IMG/VR virus record: IMGVR_UViG_3300042261_000351
Coordinates: 1 to 36,013 of that record
Reading direction: 5' to 3' (one strand)
DNA length: 36,013 nt
Source of the DNA: a virus
The notes under the pieces were generated by a model that saw nothing but the letters and a program-made list of their open reading frames with translations, had not been told where the DNA came from and searched no databases. The translations under genes were made by a program, and so were the position numbers. Every line of letters begins with the position of its first letter. Position 1 is the stretch's first letter. Below, piece by piece: positions 1,570-23,863 of this stretch.

Positions 1570-2185
1570 TAGATTTTTTAGAAAACGTAATAAAGTAATG
1601 GATTTTGATAAAGAATCGTTTGTGGATCATACACAAGATGTAGATTATCATTTATATGATCAAGATCATTTAGAAAACTTATCTGAAAATGAATTAATCA
1701 CTCCACAAGATGATAATATTGAAGAAGTTGAGCCTCTTGAAATCGTTAAAAAAATAAAAAAGAAGAAAATTAAAGAAGTTAAACAAAAATATTATGTAGA
1801 TAATACTAGATTTGAAGAGCTTATAAAAAAATATTATGAAACTGATATATTTTCTGATGAATTGGCTATGATGTTATATAATATTGCTAATCGAGCATCT
1901 TTTTCTACTAATTTTATAAATTATAGCTTTAAAGATGAGATGATTGGTGAAGGATTATTAAAAGAAATACAAACTTTAAAAGCCAAAAAATTTGATGTAA
2001 CCAAAGGAAAAGCTTTTAATTATTTCAGCACTATTGTATTCAATGCCTTTGTTGGTAAAATAAAAGAAGAACAAAAAGAACACGAATCTTTACGAGATCA
2101 CCAATCTAGAGAATATGATATATTAACCAACGGAATGAAAATAACAACCAACACACACGACGAACATTATGATACCCATATATAA
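1520..2185 (+). CDS. gp55: Late-transcription sigma factor, gp55-like
   Basis: This 221-residue protein carries the conserved gp55 core at about residues 130-190: KDEMIGEGLL, then a spacer ending KAFNYFSTIVFNAFVGKIKEEQKE, which lines up with T4 gp55 KQEMIADGI...[21 protein letters not shown]. gp55 is the small sigma factor that, with the sliding clamp and gp33, directs host RNA polymerase to TATAAATA late promoters. ATG 1520 is preceded by AAAGGA at 1505-1510 with good spacing, so it is preferred over ATG 1598, which has no Shine-Dalgarno. It is about 36 residues longer than T4 gp55, with a basic then acidic N-terminal extension. The C-terminus (ends YDTHI) does not show the T4 clamp-binding tail (DFLYE). 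It overlaps uvsW upstream and gene 47 downstream, suggesting coupled translation. Confidence 0.88.
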   Translation: MTMIASNTKSLKSKKPNRFFRKRNKVMDFDKESFVDHTQDVDYHLYDQDHLENLSENELITPQDDNIEEVEPLEIVKKIKKKKIKEVKQKYYVDNTRFEELIKKYYETDIFSDELAMMLYNIANRASFSTNFINYSFKDEMIGEGLLKEIQTLKAKKFDVTKGKAFNYFSTIVFNAFVGKIKEEQKEHESLRDHQSREYDILTNGMKITTNTHDEHYDTHI

Positions 2186-3248
2186 CCAAAAAGTTGCAAT
2201 TATTTCAGATATTCATTTAGGCATTCACACGAATTCAGAACTTTGGCATAAAATTGTTTTAGATTACGGTGAATGGCTTAAAAAAGAATTGATATCAAAA
2301 AATATTAAAGATATTATTGTATTGGGTGATATTTTTAATGATAGATCAGATATTGGTGTACAAACCTTACATGTAGCTGAATCTTTTTTTAAAATCTTTA
2401 CAGAAGGACTTTACAATTTTAATATTATATTACTTGTAGGTAATCATGATTGTTTTTATCACAATAAATCCGATGTAAACAGTACAAGCATTTTTAAAGG
2501 TTGGAAAAATATAACTGTTATTGATAAATTAGAAACAGTAACTTGGTTTGATAATCAATATACATTTATGCCTTGGGGAATTCCACTTGATACTCTCCCT
2601 TACAACAACGCTGGAATATTTGCACATTTAGATATAAACACATTTAAAGTTAATTCTATTAAAATTTGTGAAAAGGGTGTGGACTCTGATGAATTGTTAA
2701 AAAAGAGTTCATTAATAATAACCGGACACTATCACACTAAACAGGAAAGAATTTATCCAAATGGTAAAATATTATATCTTGGTTGTGTATTTCCTCAAAA
2801 TTGGAATGATGTAAGTGATAAAAAGTATTATCATATTTTAGATTTAAAAACACAAGAGTATAAATCTTTTGAAAATGTAATAAGTCCAAAATATTATAAA
2901 ATTAAATTATCAGATTTATTTATTAAAGAAAAATTACAGGAAACAAAAAGCATTGTAAATGGTAATTTTATTAAAATTATAGTGGACAAACAGATAAATT
3001 ATGAACAATTTGAAAAAATACAAACTGTATTAAATAGTTTACAACCATTGGATTTAAGTAGTGATTTTAATGATGAAACCACTATAAAAACACCAGAAAA
3101 TTATGAAAGTGTTAATATGGAAATATCTACAATGATACCAGAATATATAGAATCGCTTGAAAAAACAGAATTAAAGGATAAAATAATAAGCGAAATGGAT
3201 AGTATTTATAAAACGGCTTTAACCAGAGTAAAGATTGAGAGTAATTAA
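2169..3248 (+). CDS. gp47: Recombination endonuclease subunit gp47 (Mre11/SbcD family)
   Basis: A 359-residue calcineurin-like phosphoesterase. The metal-binding motifs are in order: SDIHLG with D14 and H16, GDIFNDR at 53-59, GNHD at 91-94, and GHYH at 186-189. T4 gp47 is 339 residues. With the ATPase gp46 it resects DNA ends to feed UvsX-mediated recombination and degrades host DNA. The gene overlaps the sigma factor gene by 17 bases. Its TAA overlaps the ATG of the first glycosyltransferase gene (TAATG at 3246-3250). In T4 genes 47 and 46 are neighbours; here gp46 lies about 14 kb away beyond a glycan cassette. Confidence 0.93.
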   Translation: MIPIYNQKVAIISDIHLGIHTNSELWHKIVLDYGEWLKKELISKNIKDIIVLGDIFNDRSDIGVQTLHVAESFFKIFTEGLYNFNIILLVGNHDCFYHNKSDVNSTSIFKGWKNITVIDKLETVTWFDNQYTFMPWGIPLDTLPYNNAGIFAHLDINTFKVNSIKICEKGVDSDELLKKSSLIITGHYHTKQERIYPNGKILYLGCVFPQNWNDVSDKKYYHILDLKTQEYKSFENVISPKYYKIKLSDLFIKEKLQETKSIVNGNFIKIIVDKQINYEQFEKIQTVLNSLQPLDLSSDFNDETTIKTPENYESVNMEISTMIPEYIESLEKTELKDKIISEMDSIYKTALTRVKIESN

Positions 3249-4048
3249 TGAAAGAAAAAATTGGAATTGGTTTAGTAACATATAATTCACCAGAGAGAAT
3301 TGAACAATCTGCATTTACAGTTCCATCAAATGTTGATAGTTTTGTTATTGTCAATGATGGAACACCATATACGCCTAATTGCTATCCTAAGAATGCACAA
3401 GTTATAACTCATTCAAAAAATCTTAGTGTAGGGTGTGCAAAAAATACAGCATTAAGACAACTTTTACAAAACGATTGTACGCATCTTTTTATTATGGAAG
3501 ATGATATTTTAATAAAAAATCAAAACATATTTGATGCATATTTAAATGCTGCTCATATAAGTGGATTATGGCATTTATCATATGGATATCACGGACCTGC
3601 GAACCTAGATCAAAACAAAACGCCAAAACCTAGACAAATCATTGATTATGGTTGTGGTGTTCAAATTGCTTTAAATGCTCATTCAGTTGGTGCTTTTTGC
3701 TACTACCACAAGGGTATAATTAGAAATGTTGGATATATGGACGAGCGGTTTAAAAATGCATGGGAACATGTTGAACACTCATATAGAATTGTAAAAACTG
3801 GGTTATTACCTGCGTATTGGTGGTGGCCTGATATTGCAAATAGTATGGAATATTTACAAGAAATTGGATCAAGTGAAGAACAATCAGTAATTAGAAAAAC
3901 TGACGAATGGAAGAAGAATCTTCAAATTGGCGCACATTTATTTAAACATTTACACGGTTATTCCCCTGTGGAAGTTCCAGATACACCAGTAGAAAAAATA
4001 AAAGAAAATTTAAAATTTATTAAAGAAACATATTCAAGGGAAGTTTAA
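3248..4048 (+). CDS. GT2-like (GT-A fold) glycosyltransferase
   Basis: A 266-residue protein with the layout of a family 2 glycosyltransferase. The start KIGIGLVTYNSPERIEQS resembles the nucleotide-binding beta-alpha opening, followed by VIVNDGT at about 34-38. SKNLSVGCAKNTALR is the usual Gly-Asn segment, and the metal/nucleotide DxD-type motif is FIMEDDIL with E84-D86. A later histidine- and tryptophan-rich segment (AYWWWPD) is likely acceptor-side. No membrane segment or signal peptide is seen, so it should act in the cytoplasm using a nucleotide sugar. It is the first gene of the cassette and shares one base with the end of gene 47. Donor and acceptor cannot be told. Confidence 0.8.
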   Translation: MKEKIGIGLVTYNSPERIEQSAFTVPSNVDSFVIVNDGTPYTPNCYPKNAQVITHSKNLSVGCAKNTALRQLLQNDCTHLFIMEDDILIKNQNIFDAYLNAAHISGLWHLSYGYHGPANLDQNKTPKPRQIIDYGCGVQIALNAHSVGAFCYYHKGIIRNVGYMDERFKNAWEHVEHSYRIVKTGLLPAYWWWPDIANSMEYLQEIGSSEEQSVIRKTDEWKKNLQIGAHLFKHLHGYSPVEVPDTPVEKIKENLKFIKETYSREV

Positions 4049-4830
4049 TGAAAATTGGATTGTTAATACCATCAAGAGAACGTCTAAATCTTAAATTAAC
4101 ATTAATATCATCTATTATTACTACAGTTAATGATATTAATAATGTTAATCTCTATTTCGGTATAGACGATGACGATCCAACTAAAGAAATAGTTGAAAAA
4201 ATAGCAAAAGCAATACCATTTGTAAAAATTATACCAATTCATAATGAAGGCAAATTTATAGGAATTAATAGAATTTGGAATATTTTGGCAGAAAATTGCA
4301 ATGATGAAATCTTTGGTTATATTGGTGATGATATGATTTTCAGAACACCAGATTGGGACGTTGAAATTTTAAAAGAATTTAATAAAGAAACTTGTCCAGA
4401 AGATAAAATAAAAATGGTACATTGTTGGGACGGGTTTCAAGGGGAAAAATTAAGTGTTAACGCATTTACACACAGAAAATATTACGAAATTATGGGTTAT
4501 TTCTGTAGACCAGAATTTTTAATTAATTATAGCGATTCATGGATGCATGAACATTTCAAAGCTTTTAATAGAATTAAATATAGGGCAGATATTTACATTG
4601 AGCATAATCATTTTGTTTTTGGAAAAAGAGAAAAAGATAAAACATCAGAAAGAATGTTGTCAAACAATCATGATAAAATTAGCGATGCATTGTGGTCAGT
4701 ATTAAGGAAAACACAAGCACAAGATATACAAAAATTATCACAATATTTAAATATAATACCAGATTATACAAAAATTGATCCAGTATTATTAAAATTATCC
4801 AGTGGATATGATAAATCATTATATGAATAA
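4048..4830 (+). CDS. GT-A-type glycosyltransferase (putative)
   Basis: A 260-residue cytoplasmic protein. It opens MKIGLLIPSRERL, a typical GT-A start, then has FGIDDDDPT at about 38-45 and YIGDDMIF with D94-D95, the position expected for the DxD metal-binding motif. GKFIGINRIWN at 69-79 is like the Gly/Asn segment of GT2 enzymes. It is translationally coupled to the previous gene by a TAATG overlap at 4046-4050. Sequence similarity to its neighbour is limited to the fold signature, so it probably adds a different sugar. The substrate is unknown. Confidence 0.7.
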   Translation: MKIGLLIPSRERLNLKLTLISSIITTVNDINNVNLYFGIDDDDPTKEIVEKIAKAIPFVKIIPIHNEGKFIGINRIWNILAENCNDEIFGYIGDDMIFRTPDWDVEILKEFNKETCPEDKIKMVHCWDGFQGEKLSVNAFTHRKYYEIMGYFCRPEFLINYSDSWMHEHFKAFNRIKYRADIYIEHNHFVFGKREKDKTSERMLSNNHDKISDALWSVLRKTQAQDIQKLSQYLNIIPDYTKIDPVLLKLSSGYDKSLYE

Positions 4831-4921
4831 CAAACAGATATTAGATTTCAACAATCATTTTTATTTTAAAAGAAAATATCAAAAATATTTAAAATATTGT
4901 AAAAATAATAGGAAAAAATAA
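4823..4921 (+). CDS. Possible 32-residue basic peptide
   Basis: ATG at 4823 overlaps the stop of the preceding gene (ATGAATAA) and the frame runs 32 codons to TAA at 4919-4921, one base before the next ATG. The product starts MNNKQILDF and is rich in Lys, Tyr and Asn, ending KNNRKK. The exact filling of a gap between two coupled genes favours a real coding or coupling ORF. The base composition is so AT-rich that a short open frame by chance is also possible. Its end carries the AGGAAA Shine-Dalgarno of the next gene. Confidence 0.4.
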   Translation: MNNKQILDFNNHFYFKRKYQKYLKYCKNNRKK

Positions 4922-4922
4922 T

Positions 4923-5630
4923 ATGAAAAAAATAGGAATAATACAACCCGGAAGAATTGGTGATATTATTATAATATTACCAGCTATTAAACATCTTAAA
5001 AAAGATGATACTCAAATATTCTGGCCTATATACGAACAATATATTTGGATGTTTACTGATGTAATAGATTATGTTACATTTATACCAGTTAAATATGATG
5101 TATATAATGTTGTAAAAGAGTGTAACAATATATTAAAAAACATATATAAATGTGATGAAATAATTGATACTGCCGCCACCTTTCCCGATAGTACTGCTAC
5201 AAAAGAATATGTTGATAACGGCGATGGATGGAAAGAACCCTTTGATGTTTTTAAATATAAAAAATTAAACATTGACATTGCATGTAAATATGGATTAAAA
5301 AATTGTTTAAATAGAAATTATAAAAAAGAACACGAATTATATACACAATTAGTTAAAAACGAAAAATATGCTGTAGCTTTTTTAAGTTGTTCAAACGGAA
5401 AATACAATGTACAATTTGATGTACAAGACGGTCAATTAATTGAAGTTGAAGAATCATATAATATATTTCATTGGATAGAAATATTAGAAAACGCAAATAC
5501 AATTATTACATTAAATAGCGGTCCATTATGCTTAGTAGAACAACTAAATTTATCAAAACCAAAAAAAATACTTTTTAAAATTCCTAATGGAAAGTTACCA
5601 TTATTACAAACTAAATGGGATATTATATGA
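4923..5630 (+). CDS. GT9-like (ADP-heptosyltransferase-type) glycosyltransferase, short
   Basis: A 235-residue protein opening KKIGIIQPGRIGDIIIILPAI, the N-terminal motif of family 9 GT-B enzymes such as LPS heptosyltransferases (R.GDxxxxLPA). Near the C-terminus, TIITLNSGPLCLVEQLN matches the part of GT9 proteins that contacts the nucleotide (usual form TxDSGxxHLA). It is about 100 residues shorter than typical GT9 enzymes (around 330-350), and the middle is compressed. It could be a minimal catalytic form or a glycan-binding relative. AGGAAA lies upstream. The stop overlaps the next start as ATGA at 5627-5630. Confidence 0.65.
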   Translation: MKKIGIIQPGRIGDIIIILPAIKHLKKDDTQIFWPIYEQYIWMFTDVIDYVTFIPVKYDVYNVVKECNNILKNIYKCDEIIDTAATFPDSTATKEYVDNGDGWKEPFDVFKYKKLNIDIACKYGLKNCLNRNYKKEHELYTQLVKNEKYAVAFLSCSNGKYNVQFDVQDGQLIEVEESYNIFHWIEILENANTIITLNSGPLCLVEQLNLSKPKKILFKIPNGKLPLLQTKWDII

Positions 5631-6406
5631 AAATAGCATTTACAATAATATTAAATGGTAAAATACATTTATTACACAATAATTATTATAAAACTATATT
5701 AGAATATTTTGATTATTGGGTTGTGGTAGAAGGAGCCAGTAAAAACACTGGAAGCACTTCGTGGTGTAAACCAATATCATGTCAACATCAAAATAACGGA
5801 CACTCTGTTGATGGAACAGTCGAATTTTTATATGAATTGAAAGGACAATATAAAAATATAATTCCAATTTTTTCAGAGGGATTGTGGTGCAATAAAGATT
5901 CACAGGTAAATACTGCTATTGCTAGAATCAAAGAAATAACAAAAGAATGTACATTATGGGAAATAGATGCTGACGAGCAATGGAAACCAGAGCAATGGAA
6001 TCACGCAGAATCTATATTAAAAGAAGAAAACGCCAAAACCGGATGTTTTTTATGCAATCATTATGTTGGTAAAAATTTAATCGCTGTAGGAGAATGGGGA
6101 GAAGGAAGAAAACTACCATATAGACGTTTATGGCATTGGAAAGATGAATTCTTTGAAAGCCATGAACCCCCAAGATTATCTGGAGGAAATGGATTAGGCA
6201 TACTAATTCCTATTAAATTTAATCATTATTCATTATATTTTGATAAAGATGTTCAGTTTAAAGAAGAATTCTATAATTATACTGGTTTATATCAAAGATG
6301 GAAAGATTTGCAAAATATGAAAGAATTTCCTCAACATATAAGTAAATTATTAGGTACTGATACACATTGGGGACATACAAATACTTTAATAATAAAAAAG
6401 GAGTAA
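5627..6406 (+). CDS. GT-A-type glycosyltransferase (putative)
   Basis: ATG 5627 is chosen over ATG 5615 because it forms an ATGA overlap with the preceding stop and has GGGA about 6 bases upstream; this gives 259 residues. The start KIAFTIILNGKIHLL is a beta-strand/loop opening, DYWVVVEGAS resembles the GT-A nucleotide pocket, and WEIDADEQW (D114, D116) is a clear DxD motif. An aromatic, histidine-containing segment follows (FNHYSLYFDK). The pattern is like phage and bacterial proteins loosely annotated as GT2 or GT17. No transmembrane segment is seen. The donor sugar is unknown. Confidence 0.62.
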   Translation: MKIAFTIILNGKIHLLHNNYYKTILEYFDYWVVVEGASKNTGSTSWCKPISCQHQNNGHSVDGTVEFLYELKGQYKNIIPIFSEGLWCNKDSQVNTAIARIKEITKECTLWEIDADEQWKPEQWNHAESILKEENAKTGCFLCNHYVGKNLIAVGEWGEGRKLPYRRLWHWKDEFFESHEPPRLSGGNGLGILIPIKFNHYSLYFDKDVQFKEEFYNYTGLYQRWKDLQNMKEFPQHISKLLGTDTHWGHTNTLIIKKE

Positions 6407-6407
6407 A

Positions 6408-7223
6408 ATGAATTTTATAGACGGAAATAATTTTATAGATCATCATATTAAAAACAATATATCTTGTGCCATAGGTAAAATAGGTGTTGTTGAATTAAAA
6501 CTTTTGCATAATTATCAAAATCAAGTTTACACTTCTGATGTAATTGAAGAAGGGCAATTCGTGGCTGGTATATATCCATATTCGAGAGATGAATATAATA
6601 AATTTGCAAAAATATATACAACTTCTTTATTAAATATTGATGCTTTAGCCGTATGGAATACTATTTTAAAAGATTTTGAGATTTCAATTTGTCAACATAT
6701 AAAAGCATATCCAATAAGATTGCAAGATATTGAACCTTATTTTCATATTCCACCTTGGTCTAAATCGTTAGAAAATAAAAAAGTGTTAGTAATAAGTCCA
6801 TTTGCAGAAAGTATTCAAAAACAATATCAAATTAGAGAAAAGATATGGCCCAATGACATACTTCCAAAATTTGATTTAACTGTAATTAAATATCCAAACG
6901 CCAGCACCGTTGATAGTAAAAATCCATTCAAATCTACCATTGATGTTATTGAAATTACTAAACAAAAAATGAAAAATGTTGACTATGATGTTGCATTAAT
7001 AGGCGTTGGTGGTGCATCTATTCCTTTAACAGCTTATGCTAAAACATGTAAAAAAATTGGTATACACATGGGAGGTTCAACACAAATTTTATTTGGAATT
7101 AGAGGAAAAAGATGGGATAATATACCAGAATTTCATAAATTTTTCAACGAATATTGGATACGGCCATCAAAAGACGAAACACCAGAAAAGGTTAATAGAG
7201 TAGAAGGGGGTTGTTATTGGTGA
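6408..7223 (+). CDS. GT-D-fold-like carbohydrate enzyme (putative)
   Basis: A 271-residue protein with a strong GGAG site. Near the N-terminus SCAIGKIGVVEL (20-30) resembles the IGxxG...E element of GT-D-type glycosyltransferases (the DUF1792 group, where a D/E pair binds the metal). The middle has PPWSKSLENKKVLVISPFAESI, and toward the end YDVALIGVGGASIPLTAYAK, then KKIGIHMGGSTQILFGIRGKRW. The last part looks like a nucleotide- or sugar-phosphate-binding Rossmann half. The assignment to a fold is inference; what is seen is a soluble two-part alpha/beta protein inside the glycan cassette. It overlaps the next gene by 4 bases (GTGA). Confidence 0.5.
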   Translation: MNFIDGNNFIDHHIKNNISCAIGKIGVVELKLLHNYQNQVYTSDVIEEGQFVAGIYPYSRDEYNKFAKIYTTSLLNIDALAVWNTILKDFEISICQHIKAYPIRLQDIEPYFHIPPWSKSLENKKVLVISPFAESIQKQYQIREKIWPNDILPKFDLTVIKYPNASTVDSKNPFKSTIDVIEITKQKMKNVDYDVALIGVGGASIPLTAYAKTCKKIGIHMGGSTQILFGIRGKRWDNIPEFHKFFNEYWIRPSKDETPEKVNRVEGGCYW

Positions 7224-8017
7224 ACAAAGTTATTGTCAAATATGATGAATGGGGTAGAATGGGAAATAGAATGTTTCAATATACATTTGGAAAAATTCTA
7301 GCAAACAATAAACAATGCGAATTTTATTGTGATTCTCTTCCTAATTTTCATTTTACGAAATTAGAGAATTCCCCTAAACTTATAACACAGATAAACAACC
7401 CTTTATATATTAAAGAAAAATATGGAAACAATTACGTAAATTATGATGAACTATTGAACCATGATGGCGACATAATTGTAAATTCTTTTTTACAAAAATC
7501 TGAATATTATATACCATATTTGGATAAAATTAGATTATGGTTTAGAATTGGTTTACCATTTGACACACCAGTTAAACTACCAGAAAAAGATGAAGTTGTA
7601 ATGCACATTAGAGAGACAGATTATAAAAACTTAGGAATATTATTAAATATTAATTATTATTCAAATTTAATTTATAATACTAATAAAAAAGTTACAATTG
7701 TAACCGATAATTGTAATTCAGAATTAGTACAAAATTTTAAAAATCGTTGTAATATTTTTAGTAACGAACCTATCAATTCATTTAATACAACATCAACTGA
7801 CAAAAGTATGTTAGATTTTATATATATGTTATATGCAGATACTTTAATATTATCACAATCAACATTTTCGTGGTGGGCAGCTTTTTTAGGTGAACATAGT
7901 GAAATTTATTTTCCTGTTAATTCTACAAATAATAAAGGTATGTGGAAATTAAATCCAAATAAAGACGATATTGATTTATATATACCAAACAAAAATTTTA
8001 TAAAGGTGATTATATGA
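7220..8017 (+). CDS. GT11-like alpha-1,2-fucosyltransferase family protein
   Basis: The GTG at 7220 is preferred as start: it overlaps the previous stop as GTGA, and GAAGGGGG at 7203-7210 sits 9 bases upstream; TTG codons at 7211 and 7217 are alternatives. The 265-residue product shows family 11 motifs: GRMGNRMFQYTFG near the N-terminus (usual GGLGNQLFQYAFG), VVMHIRETDY near residue 128 (usual HIRRGDY, the GDP-fucose-binding segment), and LILSQSTFSWWAAFLGE in the last quarter (usual SNSTFSWWAAWL). GT11 enzymes transfer fucose from GDP-fucose in alpha-1,2 linkage. An epimerase/reductase three genes downstream, of the type that makes GDP-6-deoxyhexoses, fits this. Confidence 0.82.
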   Translation: MNKVIVKYDEWGRMGNRMFQYTFGKILANNKQCEFYCDSLPNFHFTKLENSPKLITQINNPLYIKEKYGNNYVNYDELLNHDGDIIVNSFLQKSEYYIPYLDKIRLWFRIGLPFDTPVKLPEKDEVVMHIRETDYKNLGILLNINYYSNLIYNTNKKVTIVTDNCNSELVQNFKNRCNIFSNEPINSFNTTSTDKSMLDFIYMLYADTLILSQSTFSWWAAFLGEHSEIYFPVNSTNNKGMWKLNPNKDDIDLYIPNKNFIKVII

Positions 8018-8817
8018 ATTTTGTGTTATTTCATATTGGTGAAAATCTTCCATCGCATTTTCCATATTGTGTACAACAAATTCAAAAAACCAACCCGACT
8101 TGTCCTGTTTATATTATTACTAATTTAAATATTGATATAAACGAACCCAATATTAAAATAATTTCTACTAATAGTTTAAATATACCAGATATTGGTAATT
8201 ATTATAAATATGATCCTATGGGACCACTATTTCGTAATGCTATGTTAAGAATATTTTATATAGAATCGTTTATGATTAAATATAATATAGAAGATGTAAT
8301 ACATTTTGATAATGATGTTTTAATTTATGAAAATATATTAGAAATCAAAGAGGAATTAGAAAAAGAAAATTTTTATATTACACCTGCCACAACAATAGAT
8401 TATATTTTTGGATTTAGTTATATAAAAAATTATCAAACACTATCAAAAATAAATATTAAATTATATAATCTTATTATACAAGGCGAAAAAAACTTGGAAA
8501 AAATAATAGGAAGTATGCCACATGAAATGAGATTATTAAATTATGTTGATCAAGAGGAACACAACATAAATTTGTTACCTATATTACCATCTGATAAAAA
8601 TTTTAATAATTTTAAATATTGTTTTGATCCTTCCTCATACGGTCAATATTTAGGGGGCAGAAAACCAGAATACGATAAATATATAGGAAAACAGATTATT
8701 GAAAATAATATAAAAATATTTATAGAAAATAAAATTCCATATGTTTTTATGAACAATAAAAAATATAAGATATTCAATTTACATATACACAATAAAAAAA
8801 TGAAAGACTTTCTATGA
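8014..8817 (+). CDS. GT-A-type glycosyltransferase (GT8/GT32-like, putative)
   Basis: A 267-residue protein. It begins FVLFHIGENLPSHFPYCVQQI, a common opening for GT8/GT32-like enzymes, continues CPVYIITNL, and has VIHFDNDVLIYEN with the DxD motif at D99-D101. LRIFYIESFM just upstream is the helix that usually precedes this motif. The lower half contains YLGGRKPEYD, plausibly acceptor-side. It overlaps both neighbours by 4 bases (ATGA). A lysine- and isoleucine-rich C-terminus ends the protein without a membrane segment. The sugar cannot be assigned. Confidence 0.68.
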   Translation: MNFVLFHIGENLPSHFPYCVQQIQKTNPTCPVYIITNLNIDINEPNIKIISTNSLNIPDIGNYYKYDPMGPLFRNAMLRIFYIESFMIKYNIEDVIHFDNDVLIYENILEIKEELEKENFYITPATTIDYIFGFSYIKNYQTLSKINIKLYNLIIQGEKNLEKIIGSMPHEMRLLNYVDQEEHNINLLPILPSDKNFNNFKYCFDPSSYGQYLGGRKPEYDKYIGKQIIENNIKIFIENKIPYVFMNNKKYKIFNLHIHNKKMKDFL

Positions 8818-9596
8818 ACGATGTGATAATATACCAACCGTGGGGTGGATTAGGCGACAATTTAGGACATTCACCAATACCAGAATTGTGTTTTAATTCG
8901 AATATAAAATGTTATTTAAGCAATCAAAATGCTTATCGTAATCCCGAAATTTATGATTTAATTTGGGGCACAAACCCATATATCAGTGGAACAAGAGACA
9001 GCACAGACATGTCTTGGCTAGATAAATCTATTAATAGACAGTATAATAGAGATTGGAACGAATTAAAAAATATACAATGTAGATACGGATTTGATCCTAC
9101 ACATCATTATCCTCAAATATATTTTAAACCAAATTATATTCCAGAACTAAAAGAAAAAACAGTTATAAATTTGGGTGGATATTCTATATATGCTTATCAA
9201 AACTTTAATAAAGATATCAATCTGGAAAATTATAATAAATGTGTTGAACAATTAATAGAAAAATATAATCTTGATAATTTTGTTCGGTTAACTGACAATA
9301 TAAAATATGCTATTACACCAAACTTGCCAGTAATTAATAATATTACAAACACTTATGAAATACAATCATTAAAACATTATTCAGATATTATGTTTTCTTG
9401 TAAAAATTATATATGTTTTAATTCAGGACCATCTATATTAGCTTGTGCAATTAAAAATAAATATAAAACAAATTCAAATATTTTTGTTTTTAATATTGAA
9501 AAACTAAATCCTCCGACTAATTATCAATGTTATGTTTTTAAAAACGCTACTTATTTAACTATAGACACCAAACGAATATTAGAAAGGGAAGAATAA
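8814..9596 (+). CDS. GT-B / GT9-like glycosyltransferase (putative)
   Basis: A 260-residue protein that starts NDVIIYQPWGGLGDNLGHSP; the GGLGD element at 11-15 is the N-terminal loop of GT9-like and GT-B enzymes. The second half has HYSDIMFSCKNYICFNSGPSILACAI, which matches the nucleotide-contacting NSGP/DSGP region that also occurs in the other GT9-like gene of this cassette (4923-5630). No membrane segment is visible. ATGA overlap with the upstream gene implies coupled translation. It probably transfers a different sugar from the first GT9-like protein, as the two share only these motifs. Confidence 0.6.
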   Translation: MNDVIIYQPWGGLGDNLGHSPIPELCFNSNIKCYLSNQNAYRNPEIYDLIWGTNPYISGTRDSTDMSWLDKSINRQYNRDWNELKNIQCRYGFDPTHHYPQIYFKPNYIPELKEKTVINLGGYSIYAYQNFNKDINLENYNKCVEQLIEKYNLDNFVRLTDNIKYAITPNLPVINNITNTYEIQSLKHYSDIMFSCKNYICFNSGPSILACAIKNKYKTNSNIFVFNIEKLNPPTNYQCYVFKNATYLTIDTKRILEREE

Positions 9597-9597
9597 T

Positions 9598-10587
9598 ATG
9601 AAATTTTTAATTACCGGCATCACAGGATTTACTGGTCCACACTTAGCAAATATCTTATTAAAAGAAGGACACACCGTTTATGGGTTATATAGAAATGAAA
9701 ATTATTTAGATATATCTGATGTATTAAAAGAAAATATTAAAAAGATTAATTTCATTAAATGCGATTTATTAGATAAAGACAATATATACAATATTATTAA
9801 AGAAAATAAATTTGATGGTGTTTTTCATTTAGCCGCCTATACACATCCGTCTAATTCCTTTGATAATCCCGAACTAGTTTTTAATACTAATACTACTGGA
9901 ACTATGGCACTTTGTGAAAGTATTAGAAAATATAGTCCAGATTGCGTTTTAATGTATTGCTCAACAGCAGAAGTTTATGGGATATACCCCGAAAATGTTT
10001 TAATAAAAGAAAATTTTGCATTAAATCCAATAAGTCCATATGCAGTTTCAAAAGCATCTTCCGAACTGTTTGTGGCCGAACGAACAAAGAACAACATGAT
10101 ACAAGGGTTTGTAACCAGAGCGTTTTCACACACAGGACCAAGACGCCGACACAATTATTGCCTTTCGTCTGATGCCATACAAATTGCTAGAATTTTATTA
10201 AACAAACAAGATAAAATAATCAAAGTTGGCAATTTAGCGTCAAAAAGAGCTACAATGCACGTTAATGATGTTGTTCAAACTTATTATGATTTAATGATTA
10301 GAAAAATAAATTACAACATGAATAATGGAGAAGTTTTTAATATTAGTAATGATACACCACATGAAATTGGTTATTATTTAAATATGATGTTAGAAATGTA
10401 TAATTTGATAAATGTTGTAAAACTAGAACCTGACCCTAAATTATTTAGAAAAATTGATTTACCTTTACAAAGAGCAGATTGTACAAAAATTAAAGAATTT
10501 ATGAATTGGAAATTAGCCACCCCAATATCTACAGCATTACATGATTTAGTTGAATATTGGAAAGAATATGAATGGAGAGTAAAATGA
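9598..10587 (+). CDS. NAD(P)-dependent GDP-sugar epimerase/dehydratase/reductase (extended SDR)
   Basis: A 329-residue extended short-chain dehydrogenase. The dinucleotide loop is GITGFTG at 7-13; HLAAYTHPSNSFDNP follows; catalytic Ser/Thr are in YCSTAEVYG (S122-T123), and the YxxxK pair is Y148 and K152 in SPYAVSK. The C-terminal part (GNLASKRATMHVNDVVQTY and DPKLFRKIDLPLQRADCTKI) is closest by eye to GDP-6-deoxy-D-lyxo-4-hexulose reductase (Rmd) and GDP-mannose 4,6-dehydratase (Gmd). It would therefore make a GDP-6-deoxyhexose such as GDP-rhamnose or a GDP-fucose precursor. A strong GGGA-rich site precedes the start. It supplies a donor for the GT11-like enzyme or other transferases of the cassette. 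The exact reaction is uncertain. Confidence 0.85.
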   Translation: MKFLITGITGFTGPHLANILLKEGHTVYGLYRNENYLDISDVLKENIKKINFIKCDLLDKDNIYNIIKENKFDGVFHLAAYTHPSNSFDNPELVFNTNTTGTMALCESIRKYSPDCVLMYCSTAEVYGIYPENVLIKENFALNPISPYAVSKASSELFVAERTKNNMIQGFVTRAFSHTGPRRRHNYCLSSDAIQIARILLNKQDKIIKVGNLASKRATMHVNDVVQTYYDLMIRKINYNMNNGEVFNISNDTPHEIGYYLNMMLEMYNLINVVKLEPDPKLFRKIDLPLQRADCTKIKEFMNWKLATPISTALHDLVEYWKEYEWRVK

Positions 10588-11639
10588 GTGTAAAAGATTG
10601 TGATTCACATAAATTAATGTATCATCCACAAAGTGTAGCAAAATGGTTAAATAATGAACTAGTTCCTCTACACGCTGAAGTTGGTGTTACAAATAGATGT
10701 AACCATAGATGTAAATTTTGCATTTTAGATTGGGTTACACATGGAACAAATGATTTAAATCCAGACATTTACAATAAATGTTTAAAAGATATGGCGGAAA
10801 TGGGTGTTAAATCTGTTTATTATGCAGGCGATGGCGAACAAACTTTACACCCTAATTTACCAGAATTTATAGAAAATGGTAAAAAACTTGGAATGAGTCA
10901 AGCTTTATCCACAAATGGATCATTAATGAAAGATGAAACAGCAGACAAAATAATTCCAAATTTATCTTGGATAAGATTTAGCCTAGACGCAGCAACACCA
11001 GAAACATATAAAAAAATACACGGCGTTAGTGAAAATGAATATAATAAAGTATTAAATAATATAAAATATTGTGTAAGTTTAAAAAATACATATAATCTTC
11101 CTATTGATATTGGAGTTCAAATTATTGCAATGGAAGAAACAATTAATGATATCGAACCATTAGCAATATGGTGTAAAGAAAATAAAGTTGATAATATACA
11201 AATAAAACCAGCACACAACCACCCAAAAAGCTCATATCATACTGGTTTATATAATTTTGTACAACAATCTTTACAAGAAAAATTAGAAAAATTAAACGAT
11301 GATAAATTTACAGTAGTTGTTAGAGTAAAAAGCATGGAAAGATTAACACAAGAAAAAACTTATAGATGTTGTCATGGATTTGATTTTTATATTATTATTG
11401 ATGCAAGAGGAAATATCATACCATGTAGTATATTTTATAATAACGACAAATATATTTATGGAAACTTATATCAAAATGATATTAAAACAATATGGTTGAG
11501 CGAAAATAGAAAAAATATTATTAATAATATCACAGATTTAAAATTTAAAACCTGTAAAGAATATAAATGTAGATTAGATGTATTAAATCGTTATTTAGAT
11601 AGAATAAAATATCCAGAAAAAAATGATGAGTTTATATGA
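10584..11639 (+). CDS. Radical SAM enzyme with C-terminal cysteine (SPASM/twitch-like) region
   Basis: ATG 10584 (ATGA overlap, GGAG upstream) is preferred to ATG 10572, giving 351 residues. The radical SAM cluster motif CNHRCKFC is at C39, C43 and C46. YYAGDGEQ at about 78-85 is the GGE-type SAM-binding strand, and LSTNGSLM and IRFSLDAATPETY are further TIM-barrel hallmarks. After the barrel, cysteines in YRCCHGF, IIPCSIF and KTCKEYKCR suggest an auxiliary iron-sulfur cluster, as in SPASM or twitch proteins. It lies in the middle of the glycan cassette, so sugar dehydration, epimerisation or C-methylation is plausible. It is not QueE: it is much longer and lacks the QueE layout. Confidence 0.85.
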   Translation: MSVKDCDSHKLMYHPQSVAKWLNNELVPLHAEVGVTNRCNHRCKFCILDWVTHGTNDLNPDIYNKCLKDMAEMGVKSVYYAGDGEQTLHPNLPEFIENGKKLGMSQALSTNGSLMKDETADKIIPNLSWIRFSLDAATPETYKKIHGVSENEYNKVLNNIKYCVSLKNTYNLPIDIGVQIIAMEETINDIEPLAIWCKENKVDNIQIKPAHNHPKSSYHTGLYNFVQQSLQEKLEKLNDDKFTVVVRVKSMERLTQEKTYRCCHGFDFYIIIDARGNIIPCSIFYNNDKYIYGNLYQNDIKTIWLSENRKNIINNITDLKFKTCKEYKCRLDVLNRYLDRIKYPEKNDEFI

Positions 11640-12487
11640 CAAATTATATAACAGGAGAAAAATTACAAGAATGCGTTGATCATACTATTGTATTAAAAGG
11701 ACAATTTTATGCAGATGAACAGTTAAAACATACTAATTGTAAATATACATATTTTGAAAAAAATCAAAATATAAATTCATTACCAAATGATATTTTAAAT
11801 GCAAAATCTTTATTCGTTTATACACATATATTAGATTTTTTCTTTTCAAAGATTTATCCCCTTTTAAAAAACCCTTTTGTGTTAGTTACGCACAATTCTG
11901 ATAATGATATAAACGAGCAATATAAATTATATTTAAATGATACTAAAATTATTAAATGGTTTGCACAAAATGTTAACTATAATCACGAAAAATTAAGTTC
12001 TTTGCCTATTGGAATAGCAAACTCACAATGGCCTCATGGAAATTTGAATATATTTGAAAATATTAAAAATACTAAAATAGAAAAAACAAATCTTATATAT
12101 AAAAATTTTGAAATATCTACTAATATAATACACAGAAATTATGTAAATGCTGCTTTATCGAGAAATAATATATATATGAATACTAAAAAACCATATAATC
12201 AATATTTAATAGATATTAATCAGTCATTTTTTAATATATGTCCAAAAGGAAACGGGATTGACACTCACAGAATGTGGGAGAGTTTATATTTAGGTTGTAT
12301 ACCAGTTGTTGATGATTGTATAAATAATCAAAATTTTAAAGATTTGCCAATTTTAATTGTTTCTAATTGGAATGATGTTACAATCGATTATTTAAAAGAT
12401 AATATTTTAAAATATAAAAATATACAATTCAATTATGAAAAATTAAATTTAAATTATTGGAAAAATAGAATACAAAAAGGAGAATAA
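11636..12487 (+). CDS. Exostosin-like (GT47-type) glycosyltransferase
   Basis: A 283-residue protein. The signature in the C-terminal third is SFFNICPKGNGIDTHRMWE followed by LYLGCIPVVDD and LPILIVSNWNDVT, the usual nucleotide-sugar site of exostosin-like GT-B proteins (CPxG...DTxRxWExLxxGxIPVV). Earlier, FVLVTHNSDNDI and LPIGIANSQWPHG also fit this family. It is coupled to the radical SAM gene (ATGA) and ends in its own AAAGGAG, which serves the next gene. The sugar is unknown; the family includes HexNAc, GlcA, galactosyl and other transferases. Confidence 0.75.
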   Translation: MTNYITGEKLQECVDHTIVLKGQFYADEQLKHTNCKYTYFEKNQNINSLPNDILNAKSLFVYTHILDFFFSKIYPLLKNPFVLVTHNSDNDINEQYKLYLNDTKIIKWFAQNVNYNHEKLSSLPIGIANSQWPHGNLNIFENIKNTKIEKTNLIYKNFEISTNIIHRNYVNAALSRNNIYMNTKKPYNQYLIDINQSFFNICPKGNGIDTHRMWESLYLGCIPVVDDCINNQNFKDLPILIVSNWNDVTIDYLKDNILKYKNIQFNYEKLNLNYWKNRIQKGE

Positions 12488-13042
12488 ATGAGTGCATTTG
12501 AAAATGATACATTTATAGGTGAACAAATAACAGAAATTATTAATAGGGTTAAACCAAGCATCATAATAGAAACAGGCACGTTCATGGGAAATACTACAAA
12601 ATTTTTTACAAAATTTAATATACCATTAGTAGGAATAGAAAAAAACGAAGAATTTTATCAAAAAACGTTAGAAACAGTCGGAGTTTGTTCTCATTTTCAA
12701 TTGTTGCACGGTGATAGCCCAACTATATTAGACCAAAACTACGAAGTTTTAAAAAATAAAAAAATATTTGCATATTTAGATGCACATTGGGGGGGTGGAT
12801 ATACTTTAGAAAGAGAACTAGAGTTTATGGTTAAATTATTAATTAAACCAGTTTTGGCTATACATGATTTTTATAACCCAAATCACCCTGAATACGGATT
12901 TGATTGTCATGATGGTCATGCATATACTTATGATTTTTATAAATCTTATTTTGATAGAATTTATAATTCTAATTATAATTATTATTATAATAACAAAGCA
13001 ACAGGAGCAAAACAAGGAATTATTTATTTAGAACCAAAATGA
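12488..13042 (+). CDS. Class I SAM-dependent methyltransferase
   Basis: A 184-residue protein. Motif I is IIIETGTFMGNTTKFF (E28-T36), the acidic end of strand 2 is GIEKNEEF, and FAYLDAHWGGGY corresponds to motif IV. A following AIHDFYNP matches the active-site strand of small phage/bacterial sugar or peptide methyltransferases. It begins after a strong AAAGGAG site, with no gap from the previous gene. In this context O-methylation of a sugar is the simplest role. The tyrosine/asparagine-rich stretch near residues 155-168 is low complexity. Confidence 0.75.
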   Translation: MSAFENDTFIGEQITEIINRVKPSIIIETGTFMGNTTKFFTKFNIPLVGIEKNEEFYQKTLETVGVCSHFQLLHGDSPTILDQNYEVLKNKKIFAYLDAHWGGGYTLERELEFMVKLLIKPVLAIHDFYNPNHPEYGFDCHDGHAYTYDFYKSYFDRIYNSNYNYYYNNKATGAKQGIIYLEPK

Positions 13043-13893
13043 AACCATACGGACTAATTTGTAACGATTCTATTGAATTGGTTGGTCATAGTTTATTTAA
13101 TAATTTTAGATTAGCTTTATATAATTTATTAGAAGAATCTAATTTTATAGATATAAAATCATTAAACGATTTAGAAAATATTACACATTTATTTATTATA
13201 GACGAACATTTTGCTCCAAATGTAAATATATGGAAAAATATAAATTTTCAATCTTATATAAACAACAAAAACATTAGAGTTATAGTATTTAATTTTGAAA
13301 AAATTTTTAATTCATCTTTTCCTTGGAATGTAGATCATCAATTAAATATTCAAAAATTTAATAATTTTTTTCAATTAGTTTCTGATGTAGAAGACTCTAA
13401 AATATTAAAAACTAATATACTTAATAAACAGTATTTATCGAAAAACACAAAATTTAATATACTACCTAAACAAGATAAAATAGATAAAATTTTATTTATA
13501 GGTCAACTTGATGGTATACAATATAAAAATAGGCAAGATATTTTAAATTATTTAATAAACAATGGTTTAAATATTGATATTGTTAAAACTAATAGAAAAT
13601 TATCCTATTTTGATTTTTTGTGTAAAATAAACGAATATAAATATATTTTAAATCCATTAGGTACTGGTAAATTTATAAATTTAAGACATTTTGAAGCTTT
13701 ATATTTTAATACTATACCAATTCAACAAGTTGATGAGCAAATGATACCAGTTAATTTAAATATATTAAATAATTGTATATATTTTACTAATTTAGAAAAT
13801 TTTAAAAACAAAATATCAGATTTTATCTTTAATAATAACAAATATTTTTTAGAAGATTATTTTAAAGATATAAACTTTTTAAATTACTTATGA
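13039..13893 (+). CDS. GT-B glycosyltransferase-like protein (exostosin-related, putative)
   Basis: A 284-residue protein. The best signature is KYILNPLGTGKFINLRHFE followed by ALYFNTIPIQQV, which parallels the nucleotide-sugar loop and helix of the exostosin-like gene two positions upstream. KILFIGQLDGIQYKNRQDIL is the strand and helix that opens the second Rossmann domain of GT-B enzymes. The N-terminal half is poorly conserved. ATGA overlaps join it to both neighbours. A role in glycan assembly follows from motif and context; the sugar is unknown. Confidence 0.58.
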   Translation: MKPYGLICNDSIELVGHSLFNNFRLALYNLLEESNFIDIKSLNDLENITHLFIIDEHFAPNVNIWKNINFQSYINNKNIRVIVFNFEKIFNSSFPWNVDHQLNIQKFNNFFQLVSDVEDSKILKTNILNKQYLSKNTKFNILPKQDKIDKILFIGQLDGIQYKNRQDILNYLINNGLNIDIVKTNRKLSYFDFLCKINEYKYILNPLGTGKFINLRHFEALYFNTIPIQQVDEQMIPVNLNILNNCIYFTNLENFKNKISDFIFNNNKYFLEDYFKDINFLNYL

Positions 13894-14591
13894 ATTTACC
13901 AATAATAACATGTTTAGGTTCTTGTAGACTTCTTCCTGTAGAAAAATATTTTTCACACACTAAATTAAATGAGATTATATCATTTACTCACAATACAAAA
14001 GAAGTTATACAACTATTAAAATTTATTAATAATGAAATAAATATACCAGAAAATATTAATAGATTTTGTTTTAGAACAGGAATATTAAATAAATCTAATA
14101 TCTTATTACACCATCTATATAAAGAAGCAATACAAAATACTAATATTTTTATTATAGAATTGTGTAGTAATAAATGTTACATTAATAATAATTATTATCT
14201 ACATCATTTGGCAGTTGATACTAGATTTGCTGAATATAAAGACACACCAACAGAAATTATAAACACCACTAATATACATTTTTTAGAAGAAGAGGAAATA
14301 GAAGCAGATTTATTATTTTTATTAAAATATTTAAAAAATAAAAAAATTTTAATTATAACGCATTATAATGTATATCACAATAATGAATTGTTAACTACAA
14401 GAAATAATCTTATTAATAGTATAGAAAATATTTGTAAAAAACATCAAATACCCTTATTTAATCCTAGTATCTTATTTCAACAATATAAACAAAACGATAT
14501 CATACAAAATGATTATGGACATTTGACAAATTTAGGAAAAAATATTGCAGGATTACATTTGCGTCAAACAATACTTGAACTTTTTAAATGA
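13890..14591 (+). CDS. SGNH/GSCFA-like hydrolase (putative sugar acyl-esterase)
   Basis: A 233-residue protein, last of the cassette. It opens LPIITCLGSCRLLPVEKYF, where GSCR at 10-13 resembles the GSC/GNC block of GSCFA and capsule-enzyme (WcbI-like) families. It later has IFIIELCSNKC and a C-terminal DYGHLTNLGKNIAG, like the Asp/His block of SGNH hydrolases (DxxHL...G). Such proteins often remove or add acetyl groups on surface glycans. The nucleophile is not certain: Ser 11 is the candidate. The -35 element of the guaC promoter lies inside its 3' end. Confidence 0.45.
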   Translation: MNLPIITCLGSCRLLPVEKYFSHTKLNEIISFTHNTKEVIQLLKFINNEINIPENINRFCFRTGILNKSNILLHHLYKEAIQNTNIFIIELCSNKCYINNNYYLHHLAVDTRFAEYKDTPTEIINTTNIHFLEEEEIEADLLFLLKYLKNKKILIITHYNVYHNNELLTTRNNLINSIENICKKHQIPLFNPSILFQQYKQNDIIQNDYGHLTNLGKNIAGLHLRQTILELFK

Positions 14592-14602
14592 TATGATAGT
14601 AT
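14575..14602 (+). promoter_or_regulatory. Sigma70-type promoter for guaC, leaderless spacing
   Basis: TTGAAC (14575-14580), 16-base spacer ending TGA, then TAGTAT (14597-14602). The ATG at 14610 follows after only 7 bases, so transcription would begin at or just before the start codon. No Shine-Dalgarno is present between the box and ATG. It is one of seven matching elements in the window. Confidence 0.6.
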
Positions 14603-14609
14603 TTTATAC

Positions 14610-15569: not shown

Positions 15570-15636
15570 GGAATAAAACGAATATGGATTTTGAAGATTT
15601 AACTTCAGCGTTAGATTTTATTTAGAAAGGTCACAC

Positions 15637-15792: not shown

Positions 15793-15796
15793 CAAT

Positions 15797-16295: not shown

Positions 16296-16298
16296 ATA

Positions 16299-16520: not shown

Positions 16521-16521
16521 T

Positions 16522-17247: not shown

Positions 17248-17258
17248 TCAGACACAAC

Positions 17259-17431
17259 ATGAACACAAGAAAACATTTATTAACTTGTCTTATAGATATG
17301 ATGCATGGAATTTTATAGCTACTTGGTGTAACAACGATTGTGATGTACAGGGGAGTGTTCTTAGATCAAAAAAGAAAAATACCAAAAATGGTCAAAAAAT
17401 ACTTACTAGATTACAACAAAGAAAAACATTA
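17259..17431 (+). pseudogene. Probable frameshifted small gene ahead of gp46
   Basis: ATG 17259 opens MNTRKHLLTCLID and then stops at 17316-17318. The frame one base back continues with protein-like sequence: YDAWNFIATWCNNDCDVQG, then RSKKKNTKNGQKILTRLQQ, running in frame into gp46 with no stop. Joined after the Asp codon (17295-17297) the two pieces give a sensible small basic protein of about 60 residues. Without the shift, the second part has only a TTG at 17285 as start and would appear as a 49-residue extension of gp46. I do not recognise the family. A single-base deletion, a sequencing error or a recoding event could explain it. Confidence 0.45.
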
Positions 17432-21747: not shown

Positions 21748-21749
21748 TT

Positions 21750-22594: not shown

Positions 22595-23863
22595 ATGGCT
22601 GATAATAAACAATATGCTAACATAAATTATGATATATTTGACATTGGATATCCTTACTGTCCTTATCTACCTTTTGGCGCAAAGCCCATCAGTAAGGCCG
22701 TGGTGTCCAAAACAAACATCCAACCACCCCCACTAGCCCTTCCTGGTTCTGACCTCCCTAGAGCCTTGCAATATGCAGCAGATTATAGTGGATGTGGGTT
22801 TTATAGAACTGGACTTCCTGAATTTTTATTAAATTATAATCAAAAAATGGTCATTAGTACATTAACTGCTATGGTTATTGATCCAAGATTTTATTTGGCT
22901 GGTTATAAAAGTATTTTATTACAAAGACAAGCAACACCTGTTCAAAAAGAATTTGTAAAATTTTTGAAAGTTATGGGTAATGCACTAAATTCTAAAATTA
23001 TTTATGAAGTAGATGATGTCGTATGTTTCGAAGATATTCCTCTTTATAACCGTTGTAGAGGCGCATTCACTGATCCCGAAATAAGAAAAAGTATTGAAGA
23101 AATTGTAAATTTGTGTGGTGAAATGATAGTAGTTTCCGATTATATGAAAGAATATTATAAAAATAAATTTAACATCAAAAATGTTACAACAATTCCAAAT
23201 TATATACCAAAATTTTGGTTTGATAGATTTTATAATGAAGAAAAAATTCTGAAAAATTATCAAGATAATAAAAAACGTCCAAAGATTTTAGTAACTGCAA
23301 GTGGAACTCACCTCGATGTTGCTAATGCTACAAACCAAAAAGATGATTATTCCGTGGTATTACAAAATATTATAAAAACACGTAAAGATTTTCAATGGGT
23401 TTTTATGGGCGGCTTCCCGTTACTGTTAAAGCCACTGATAGATTGTGGTGATATTAAATTTCTACCTTGGGCGCAATTATTAGATTTTCCAAGTGCTATT
23501 AATAATGTTGGAGCACAAGTTACAATGGCTGCATTATTAGACAATCATTTTAACCGTTCAAAAAGTTGGATAAAATTAACTGAATCGTCTCATTTAGGTA
23601 TTCCATTTGTCGGGCAGGATTTAGAACCGTATAAAAGTGCATTTCATAAATTTAATACAAGTGATGAAATGATAGACCAAATTAAAAGTATTGTTATAGA
23701 TGAAGACACTTATATGAAAGATGTAAAGCGTCATAGAGCATTTGGAGATACTTTATGGCTAGATGATAATCTGGAATGTCATCTAGAAAAACTCACACTA
23801 CCATTTGGTGATCAAAAACGTATATCATTATTAAAATTGAATCCAGAACAATTAATTAAATAA
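22595..23863 (+). CDS. GT-B (GT4-like) glycosyltransferase
   Basis: A 422-residue protein. SKIIYEVDDVVCFEDIP and EMIVVSDYMKEYY with TIPNYIP are the N-domain features of GT4-like enzymes. The C-domain has WVFMGGFPLLL, KFLPWAQLLDFPS and RSKSWIKLTESSHLGIPFVG, the nucleotide-sugar site with the glutamate pattern (normally E...GxP). About 100 residues at the N-terminus are proline-rich and unlike GT4. That part is encoded by unusually GC-rich DNA (about 22670-22775), unlike the rest. Such proteins next to phage polymerase genes may glycosylate DNA or virion proteins, but no hydroxymethylase is seen here. It has its own promoter and AAAGGA site, and decayed homing endonucleases on both sides. Confidence 0.75.
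   Translation: MADNKQYANINYDIFDIGYPYCPYLPFGAKPISKAVVSKTNIQPPPLALPGSDLPRALQYAADYSGCGFYRTGLPEFLLNYNQKMVISTLTAMVIDPRFYLAGYKSILLQRQATPVQKEFVKFLKVMGNALNSKIIYEVDDVVCFEDIPLYNRCRGAFTDPEIRKSIEEIVNLCGEMIVVSDYMKEYYKNKFNIKNVTTIPNYIPKFWFDRFYNEEKILKNYQDNKKRPKILVTASGTHLDVANATNQKDDYSVVLQNIIKTRKDFQWVFMGGFPLLLKPLIDCGDIKFLPWAQLLDFPSAINNVGAQVTMAALLDNHFNRSKSWIKLTESSHLGIPFVGQDLEPYKSAFHKFNTSDEMIDQIKSIVIDEDTYMKDVKRHRAFGDTLWLDDNLECHLEKLTLPFGDQKRISLLKLNPEQLIK

Follow-up and report, generated by a model that had tools for sequence, protein, structure and literature searches.

The window examined here is the 36-kb virus record IMGVR_UViG_3300042261_000351 of IMG/VR, taken at its full length of 36,013 nucleotides. It derives from a T4-like phage with a G+C content (GC) of ~26% and carries a cassette of sugar-related genes between the recombination-nuclease genes gp47 and gp46. 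The genes of the window were found in the order uvsW, gp55, gp47, c01 to c14 (the cassette), guaC, small open reading frames (ORFs), thyX and gp46, followed by a gene named dNMP kinase by our own reading, a glycosyltransferase gene (at 21058), a small protein gene, gtB (at 22595), gp43, uvsX, gp41, gp32 and gp45. The core order uvsW-gp55-gp47-(cassette)-gp46-gtB-gp43-uvsX-gp41-gp32-gp45 was common to the window and related phage records, one of which, G001, also encoded gp17, gp18, gp20, gp21 and gp23 (G-numbers are record labels of related phages and L-numbers are locus labels). By this conserved core order, the window and its relatives are T4-like phages of an uncultured clade.

The cassette (3248-14591) was composed of 14 ORFs on the same strand that fill the whole of this interval. 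Of the 15 junctions from gp47 through guaC, 14 were overlapping or at most 18 bp apart, the exception being a gap of 92 bp between c02 and c03. These results agree with the tight gene overlaps reported for the cassette in an earlier interpretation of the window made from its letters alone (the sequence-only reading). That interpretation also placed the cassette between gp47 and gp46, which is correct, with the amendment that the stretch from the cassette to gp46 also holds guaC, small ORFs and thyX. The GC of the cassette (25.2%) was close to that of the remainder of the window (26.6%) and thus provided no foreign signature. Scans of positions 2000-17500 detected 154 promoter-like sites, near chance when compared to a shuffled expectation of 137.6 (standard deviation 13.4), and one terminator-like site, on the minus strand, which showed nothing for the cassette. 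Coordinates and matches are presented in Table 1.

Table 1. Genes of the cassette, its flanks and gtB in the window, with the matches on which each name is based.
Feature	Position	Strand	Basis
gp47, SbcD-like recombination nuclease subunit, left flank	2169..3248	+	phrog_100 2.9e-53; alignment of 13 clade gp47
c01, leader glycosyltransferase, GT-A fold, conserved EDD motif	3248..4048	+	phrog_2456 5.6e-27
c02, GT2-like glycosyltransferase	4048..4830	+	phrog_14945 2.8e-29; Glycos_transf_2 0.0023, below cut-off
c03	4923..5630	+	GT9/GT-B-like by motif impression only
c04, GT2-like glycosyltransferase (weak)	5615..6406	+	Glycos_transf_2 0.0018, below cut-off
c05, GT-D-like glycosyltransferase	6408..7223	+	PF22882 3e-06, 27.2 bits vs cut-off 27
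c06, GT11 (fucosyltransferase-type) glycosyltransferase, TTG start as listed	7211..8017	+	PF01531 4.7e-07, over cut-off; phrog_2644 6.7e-16
c07, DND motif, recurrent cassette family	8014..8817	+	no named family; DUF at 0.047 only
c08	8814..9596	+	phrog_23374 (unknown function) 0.0007 only; GT-B-like/GT9 by motif impression only
c09, GDP-hexose/heptose 4,6-dehydratase-reductase family	9598..10587	+	PF16363 (GDP_Man_Dehyd) 8.6e-62
c10, radical SAM/SPASM enzyme	10572..11639	+	PF04055 6.1e-18; PF13186 3.4e-07
c11, GT47/RXYLT1-like glycosyltransferase	11636..12487	+	PF24785 (RXYLT1_C) 1.2e-06, over cut-off; PF03016 5e-07, below cut-off
c12, CmcI/rhamnosyl-O-methyltransferase-like methyltransferase (weak)	12488..13042	+	PF04989 0.00088, below cut-off
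c13	13039..13893	+	no library match; GT-B-like C-terminal half by impression
c14, TviD-related, possibly SGNH O-acetyltransferase/esterase	13890..14591	+	NF011727 (TviD) 2.3e-16
gp46, SbcC-like, right flank of hotspot	17285..19552	+	51% identity to G001 gp46
gtB, conserved GT-B/GT4-type glycosyltransferase	22595..23863	+	phrog_7162 7.8e-20

By library searches, 10 of the 14 cassette products matched sugar-enzyme or linked families, so that the fourteen carbohydrate genes named in the sequence-only reading were recovered in part. No named family was found for c03, c07, c08 or c13 in these searches, and only weak, unrelated matches were returned by PDB profile searches of the same four products. 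Homologues of c03 (32-47% identity) were found in other cassettes, of c07 in 15 of 175 loci compared (repeats counted), of c13 in the L233 cassette (49% identity) and of c10 in the G025 cassette (67% identity); none of c14 was detected among the 175 loci. The proposed GT-A, GT-D-like, GT11 and exostosin-like fold types were retained (the last as GT47, below cut-off), whereas GT9 for c03 and c08 was a motif impression only. The GDP-sugar enzyme c09 and the radical SAM enzyme c10 were likewise retained; the methyltransferase c12 and the TviD-like c14 were below cut-off. The best PDB matches of c09 were a GDP-heptose 4,6-dehydratase (2.8e-46) and a GDP-6-deoxy-lyxo-4-hexulose reductase (3.5e-41), and the best stretch of c14 against TviD covered residues 100-214, with a score far below the equivalog cut-off. 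Assembly of a glycan by the cassette is well supported. The 'complete' oligosaccharide of the sequence-only reading is unproven, and its 'fucose or rhamnose' is narrowed to the reasonable inference, and no more, that a GDP-6-deoxy sugar from c09 may be transferred by the GT11 enzyme c06. When 141 proteins of 11 other gp47-gp46 intervals were tallied by Pfam family, glycosyltransferases, nucleotide-sugar enzymes and methyltransferases ranked highest: GT2 14, epimerase 9, Methyltransf_24 9, GDP_Man_Dehyd 8, GT25 7, RXYLT1 6, NTP_transferase 5 and CmcI 5 (79 families overall, 25 of them listed). For this tally 141 of 148 ORFs were used, with omission of an ORF of 64 amino acids (L100) and the six G001 ORFs after gene 7.

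We examined the gp47-gp46 interval (site A) in related phages. A UvsX search revealed close relatives at 71% UvsX identity and many more at about 46-57%. Of 14 intervals of this clade, all but that of G011 contained an insert, 3.5-15 kb long, and 12 of these 13 inserts had a c01 homologue in first or second place (G001/G002 and G003/G009 have identical intervals, and all are counted). A gp47 profile search was analyzed for 80 loci, those among the matches listed. The two genes abutted in 51 of the 80, consistent with the earlier claim that the cassette parts genes that are normally neighbours; 14 loci had an insert with gp46 in view and 15 had no gp46 in the stretch. In 24 of these 29 non-abutting loci c01 was first or second after gp47, and the stretch stopped at gp47 in four of the five others. 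A gp47 tree with 89 rows needed at least three changes on starred branches to account for the abutting state; six rows had no state, L173 was a fragment of 124 amino acids, and L129, L149, L166 and L170, four of the 80 loci that repeat records already included, were omitted. Insert size at gp47|gp46 ranged from 0 to about 24 kb, and cyanophage Syn33 had one small gene at this position. The longest interval observed, about 24 kb in G025 (L217/L218), held 12 of the 14 window cassette genes plus others.

A search with a c01 protein revealed a further site. Among the best 80 of 93 loci, gp47 was one of the two ORFs preceding c01 in 40, and in 35 of the other 40 a divergent phoH was within the stretch (site B, beside phoH), where c01 usually headed a variable cassette if the contig continued. 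Of the remaining loci, L279, with gp46 following c01, is probably a truncated site A, and L231, L232, L283 and L292 had no phoH in the stretch. Thirty whole records, chosen by us mostly for length and in some cases for a known c01, were then searched; the records are contigs, mostly incomplete. By this approach, c01 was detected in 27 records, always at one place, and the three without it were G005 and G014, whose contigs stop at gp46, and G020, whose cassette lacks c01. In the 25 records with both gp47 and c01, the cassette was at site A in 15 (both members of G001/G002 and G003/G009 counted), at site B in 10 and at both in none. At site A, c01 was within about 1.1 kb after gp47; at site B it was 12-19 kb off on the other side of gp47 and divergent, with phoH adjoining in 10 of 10. 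All six records chosen for abutting gp47-gp46 had c01 at site B, and gp47 and gp46 abutted in all four records checked of those chosen for a site-B cassette. Taken together, these results reveal what the sequence-only reading did not: the cassette occupies an exchangeable locus with two alternative sites and one cassette per genome in the tested records. A single insertion unique to the window phage was rejected, as related loci carry c01-led inserts at two sites.

Cassette contents were found to be replaced as a block. Between G013 and G021, gp47 (95.8%) and gp46 (95%) were nearly identical and the flanking DNA was 92.2% and 90.4% identical; homology ended 57 bp into c01 and restarted 4 bp ahead of gp46, the DNA in the interval showing no match, and 2 of 13 cassette genes were in common, at 34-44% identity. 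Thus, conserved flanks with block replacement of contents, as in serotype-type exchangeable loci, are present in this pair. Between G013 and G039, which carry their cassettes at different sites, gp47 was 44% and gp46 41% identical, 13 of 14 cassette genes were in common in the same order with a median identity of 70%, and the DNA aligned from 7 bp into c01 onwards. The left exchange limit was at the start of c01 in the exchange pairs compared. The window shared 12 of 14 cassette genes (43-67% identity) with G025, for which gp47 was 42% and gp46 33% identical and c09 and c10 were at different positions in the order; with G001 (gp47 66% identical) it shared three genes by BLAST. Ten pairs with gp47 more than 82% identical had from one to seven cassette genes in common. 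Across the 253 pairs of 23 cassettes, gp47 identity correlated with the shared fraction at a Spearman coefficient of 0.28, and mean sharing was 0.263 within a site compared to 0.269 across sites. The view that the cassette is simply inherited vertically together with the core was therefore rejected, since sharing was weakly tied to gp47 identity and equal across sites. Chance or annotation artefact was also rejected as the origin of the cassette, as its gene order is common to distant phages. Median cassette identity exceeded gp47 identity by at least 5 points in 11 of the 65 pairs sharing at least three genes; thus, a pair of phages need not be more alike in cassette genes than in the core. 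For the pairwise comparison, the G001 interval comprised the seven ORFs before guaC, minus-strand ORFs were dropped from the first-mapped site-A cassettes and, as for the gp47 tree, one each of G001/G002 and G003/G009 was used.

Bacterial O-antigen and capsule loci are similarly composed of variable glycan genes between conserved flanks, and are switched as blocks by recombination in the flanks. The locus described here differs from these in that it is phage-borne, lies between recombination-nuclease genes, has no predicted membrane export machinery and uses two alternative sites. Because the cassette is exchanged as a block, as these bacterial loci are, our results suggest that it directs strain-specific, phage-made sugars, which perhaps coat the phage's own particles.

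The gene most constant among the cassettes was c01, which was first or second in most clade cassettes and a tandem pair in G004, G006 and G033. Its AlphaFold model had a predicted local distance difference test score (pLDDT) of 93.4, and a fold search gave Z scores of 16-18 to many GT-A enzymes. By tblastn, 477 of the 513 isolate records matched by c01 were Mycobacterium phages, and no cyanophage record was among the matches of two c01 proteins. The matched Mycobacterium phages carry the F1 label. In some cassettes, c01-type domains were observed within longer proteins of 478-502 amino acids (L317, 187-1695 flipped; L200; L208). Outside the cassette, gtB may be its constant partner: it was the next ORF after gp46 in 45 of the 51 loci where one is visible and also directly followed gp46 in four site-B records checked. 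The window differs from its relatives in that other ORFs lie between gp46 and gtB. The gtB model (pLDDT 87.7) had BshA/MshA/TarM-type GT4 enzymes as best Foldseek matches. Among isolate phages, gtB was matched in 4 of 50,697 records at 23-26% identity. A gtB search of bacterial and archaeal genomes returned 14 loci of mixed phyla at 22-40% identity and did not identify a host. A single-sequence gp47 search found no close relatives. Nor was a close relative met among isolate phages, for which gp47 reached no more than about 29% identity among the best matches listed.

The location of glycan synthesis was assessed by predicted membrane segments. By hydropathy alone, no ORF with four or more predicted segments was detected among 264 ORFs of site-A intervals or 76 site-B ORFs, and the 14 cassette products of the window had no predicted segment at all. 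The 264 ORFs were from 23 intervals, some incomplete, and include G001 non-sugar ORFs and the near-duplicate pair L181/L182. A Gtr-type O-antigen conversion module (GtrA flippase plus membrane glucosyltransferase) was not encountered in the hydropathy scans of these 264 and 76 ORFs, nor were Wzx, Wzy or an initiating membrane transferase, which were also absent from the 25 Pfam families listed, of 79, for the 141 proteins. With no predicted polytopic membrane protein, no flippase, polymerase or initiating transferase was seen, as the sequence-only reading had stated, and synthesis is probably cytoplasmic.

Based on these results, we give about an even chance to the proposal that a clade of large T4-like phages has an exchangeable glycan locus, of which the cassette is one allele, and that the locus directs a strain-specific glycan onto a cytoplasmic acceptor, most likely a virion protein. 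The near-constant leader c01 heads a variable set of soluble glycosyltransferases, GDP-sugar enzymes and methyltransferases, with a TviD-like protein in addition in the window; the cassette, at site A or site B and one per genome in the tested records, is replaced as a block, possibly by homologous recombination and under selection for glycan diversity. In the infected cell, the enzymes would add sugars stepwise to yield a strain-specific, partly 6-deoxy, methylated glycan, in which c01 and the core-encoded gtB may perform a conserved early transfer and the variable genes the type-specific part. A stricter form of this proposal, which we hold tentatively and at a little below an even chance, is that the phages have 'glycotypes': exactly one c01-led cassette per genome would dock at one of two sites, c01 and gtB would form the constant attachment step, and the sugar type of the particle would be switched by exchange of whole cassettes between lineages and sites. 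A virion protein is favoured as acceptor over the host surface on four indirect grounds: synthesis seems cytoplasmic, head genes follow site B, capsids of F1 mycobacteriophages are reportedly glycosylated and c01 matches mostly Mycobacterium phages. Downstream of site B and in the same direction, at least one of gp15, gp20, gp21 and gp23 was found in 7 of 8 stretches and all four in 3 of 8.

Several observations weigh against the virion proposal. Directly after site B come a clamp-loader-like gene and a helicase, before the head genes, and the site-A cassette is joined to gp55-gp47-gp46, an early-type neighbourhood (gp55, gp47 and gp46 are early/middle genes by analogy to T4). A test for late promoters was null: the T4 consensus was detected upstream of none of the 26 leaders at site B and 2 of the 32 at site A, compared to 33 of 1190 control ORFs. 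The likeness of c01 to Mycobacterium phages is weak (27-28% identity, E about 1e-7 to 3e-6); Klebsiella and Serratia jumbo phages outscore them, the c01 of L226 matches one isolate only, hhalign gave c01 and Che8 gp109 a probability of 6.9%, and the fold of c01 matches GT-A enzymes that act on protein, lipid and polysaccharide equally well. In addition, two cassettes lack c01 (G020, G028), G011 has gp47 and gp46 abutting although inside a cassette-bearing gp47 group (L101; 30-kb contig), and eight listed loci have one divergent c01-like gene as their whole insert. The latter loci (L135, L140, L141, L148, L150, L161, L164 and L169) were observed to form a well-supported gp47 group, and the c01-like gene of L135 scored 110 bits.

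The main rival, which we consider rather unlikely, is that the cassette remodels a surface glycan of the host, such as a lipopolysaccharide (LPS) core, on cytoplasmic, lipid-linked acceptors, and thereby excludes competitors or stops re-adsorption of progeny, with cassette diversity tracking host surface types. Such a role is proposed for pelagimyophage glycosyltransferase islands in a passage of PMC7029224, and is in accord with the overlap of cassette families with LPS loci (GT25, NTP_transferase, epimerases), the early-type neighbourhood of site A and the TviD-like c14; but with no predicted flippase, polymerase, GtrA-like protein or initiating membrane transferase in the cassettes scanned, the cassette would be wholly dependent on a lipid-linked acceptor of the host, and head genes follow site B. 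Glycosylation of phage DNA bases against restriction, with cassette exchange as an arms race with nucleases, appears improbable to us. Glycosylation of DNA by known routes requires a modified base, and PF00303 (thymidylate synthase/dCMP hydroxymethylase) was not detected in any of 38 clade records, mostly fragments and at most 248 kb long, by a search that was positive in G019 and 9 of 14 control genomes. The C5-methylase PF00145 was found in 0 of 17 clade records and Tet/JBP (PF12851) also in 0 of 17, although controls for the latter were likewise blank; the methyltransferase families of the Pfam tally are not C5-methylases. DNA decoration, an option of the sequence-only reading, is weakened by the PF00303 and C5-methylase results, and so is T4-type DNA glycosylation. 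DNA metabolism genes do surround site A and, according to work by Pyle in 2024, DNA glycans are reportedly built by phage enzymes. Pentose-modified phage DNA is also described in text of PMC12838424. Highly improbable, in our estimate, is that the cassettes are selfish or filler 'stuffer' DNA for headful packaging with no function. This was raised for cyanophage LPS clusters near hli03 or phoH in a section of Sullivan 2010 (PMC3037559), and the wide range of insert sizes fits it; against it, all 14 reading frames of the window cassette are open and tightly packed, gene order is common to distant phages, and intact cassettes are exchanged as blocks between phages and sites, one per record.

Large sugar-gene clusters were described in T4-like phages no later than 2010. 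In the portion of PMC3037559 used here, the LPS clusters of cyanophages P-SSM2, S-SSM7 and S-SM2 are large LPS-type sets of sugar genes, some near phoH, and their function is left open, as functional or 'stuffer DNA'. The window cassette is likewise a multi-gene LPS-type sugar cluster in a T4-like genome. By contrast, the cyanophage clusters are placed by that text near hli03 and/or phoH plus tRNAs, whereas the window cassette is at gp47|gp46 with related cassettes beside phoH, is c01-led, occurs once per record and is exchanged between sites. The host recognition cluster (HRC) of pelagimyophages, as presented in part of PMC7029224, is similar as a hypervariable island with glycosyltransferase and radical SAM gene cassettes; it differs in its location between VrlC and gp14 and its tail fibres, the window cassette lying elsewhere with no recognised tail fibre gene. 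For F1 mycobacteriophages (Che8, Rita), PMC11256854 reports that the major capsid proteins carry covalently bound glycans; c01 matches mostly Mycobacterium phages. Che8 has three annotated glycosyltransferase genes rather than an exchangeable cassette of 5-20 genes, and its homology to c01 is weak. Moraphages are also large aquatic phages with T4-type genes, with four core orthologous groups annotated as glycosyltransferases, and no cassette, site or exchange appears in the text examined of PMC12619734. A term search of the Far-T4 paper (PMC4360716) did not find 'glycosyl', and we found neither c01-led cassettes nor the gp47|gp46 site nor two-site exchange described in the open-access literature searched. 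Block exchange makes the function of such clusters testable, as phages with a common cassette but different cores are expected to carry the same glycan type. Should the glycan be destined for virions, phages would differ in sugar coat independently of their tail fibres, with relevance to adsorption, the stability of particles and their recognition by the immune system.

Additional features were observed outside the cassette. Directly after it, guaC (GMP reductase, 14610-15569) exceeds the NCBIfam cut-off for PRK05458; it is at an equivalent place in G001/G002, G025 has two part-matches to it beyond the cassette, and G038 has a part-match near gp23. This GMP-to-IMP enzyme may serve the supply of A/T-rich DNA in a phage of 26% GC. 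Before gtB, positions 21058-22370 encode a glycosyltransferase (PF13712, 2e-14), conserved in G001, and a second product that weakly matches acetyltransferases. The window gp43 (24128-26804), which encodes DNA polymerase, is divided between two ORFs that differ in frame: the undivided 852-residue polymerase of G001 aligns through its residues 1-489 and 501-851 to frames 2 and 3 of the window, with ~145 bp between, and a natural split gene, a small insertion or an assembly error are candidate explanations.

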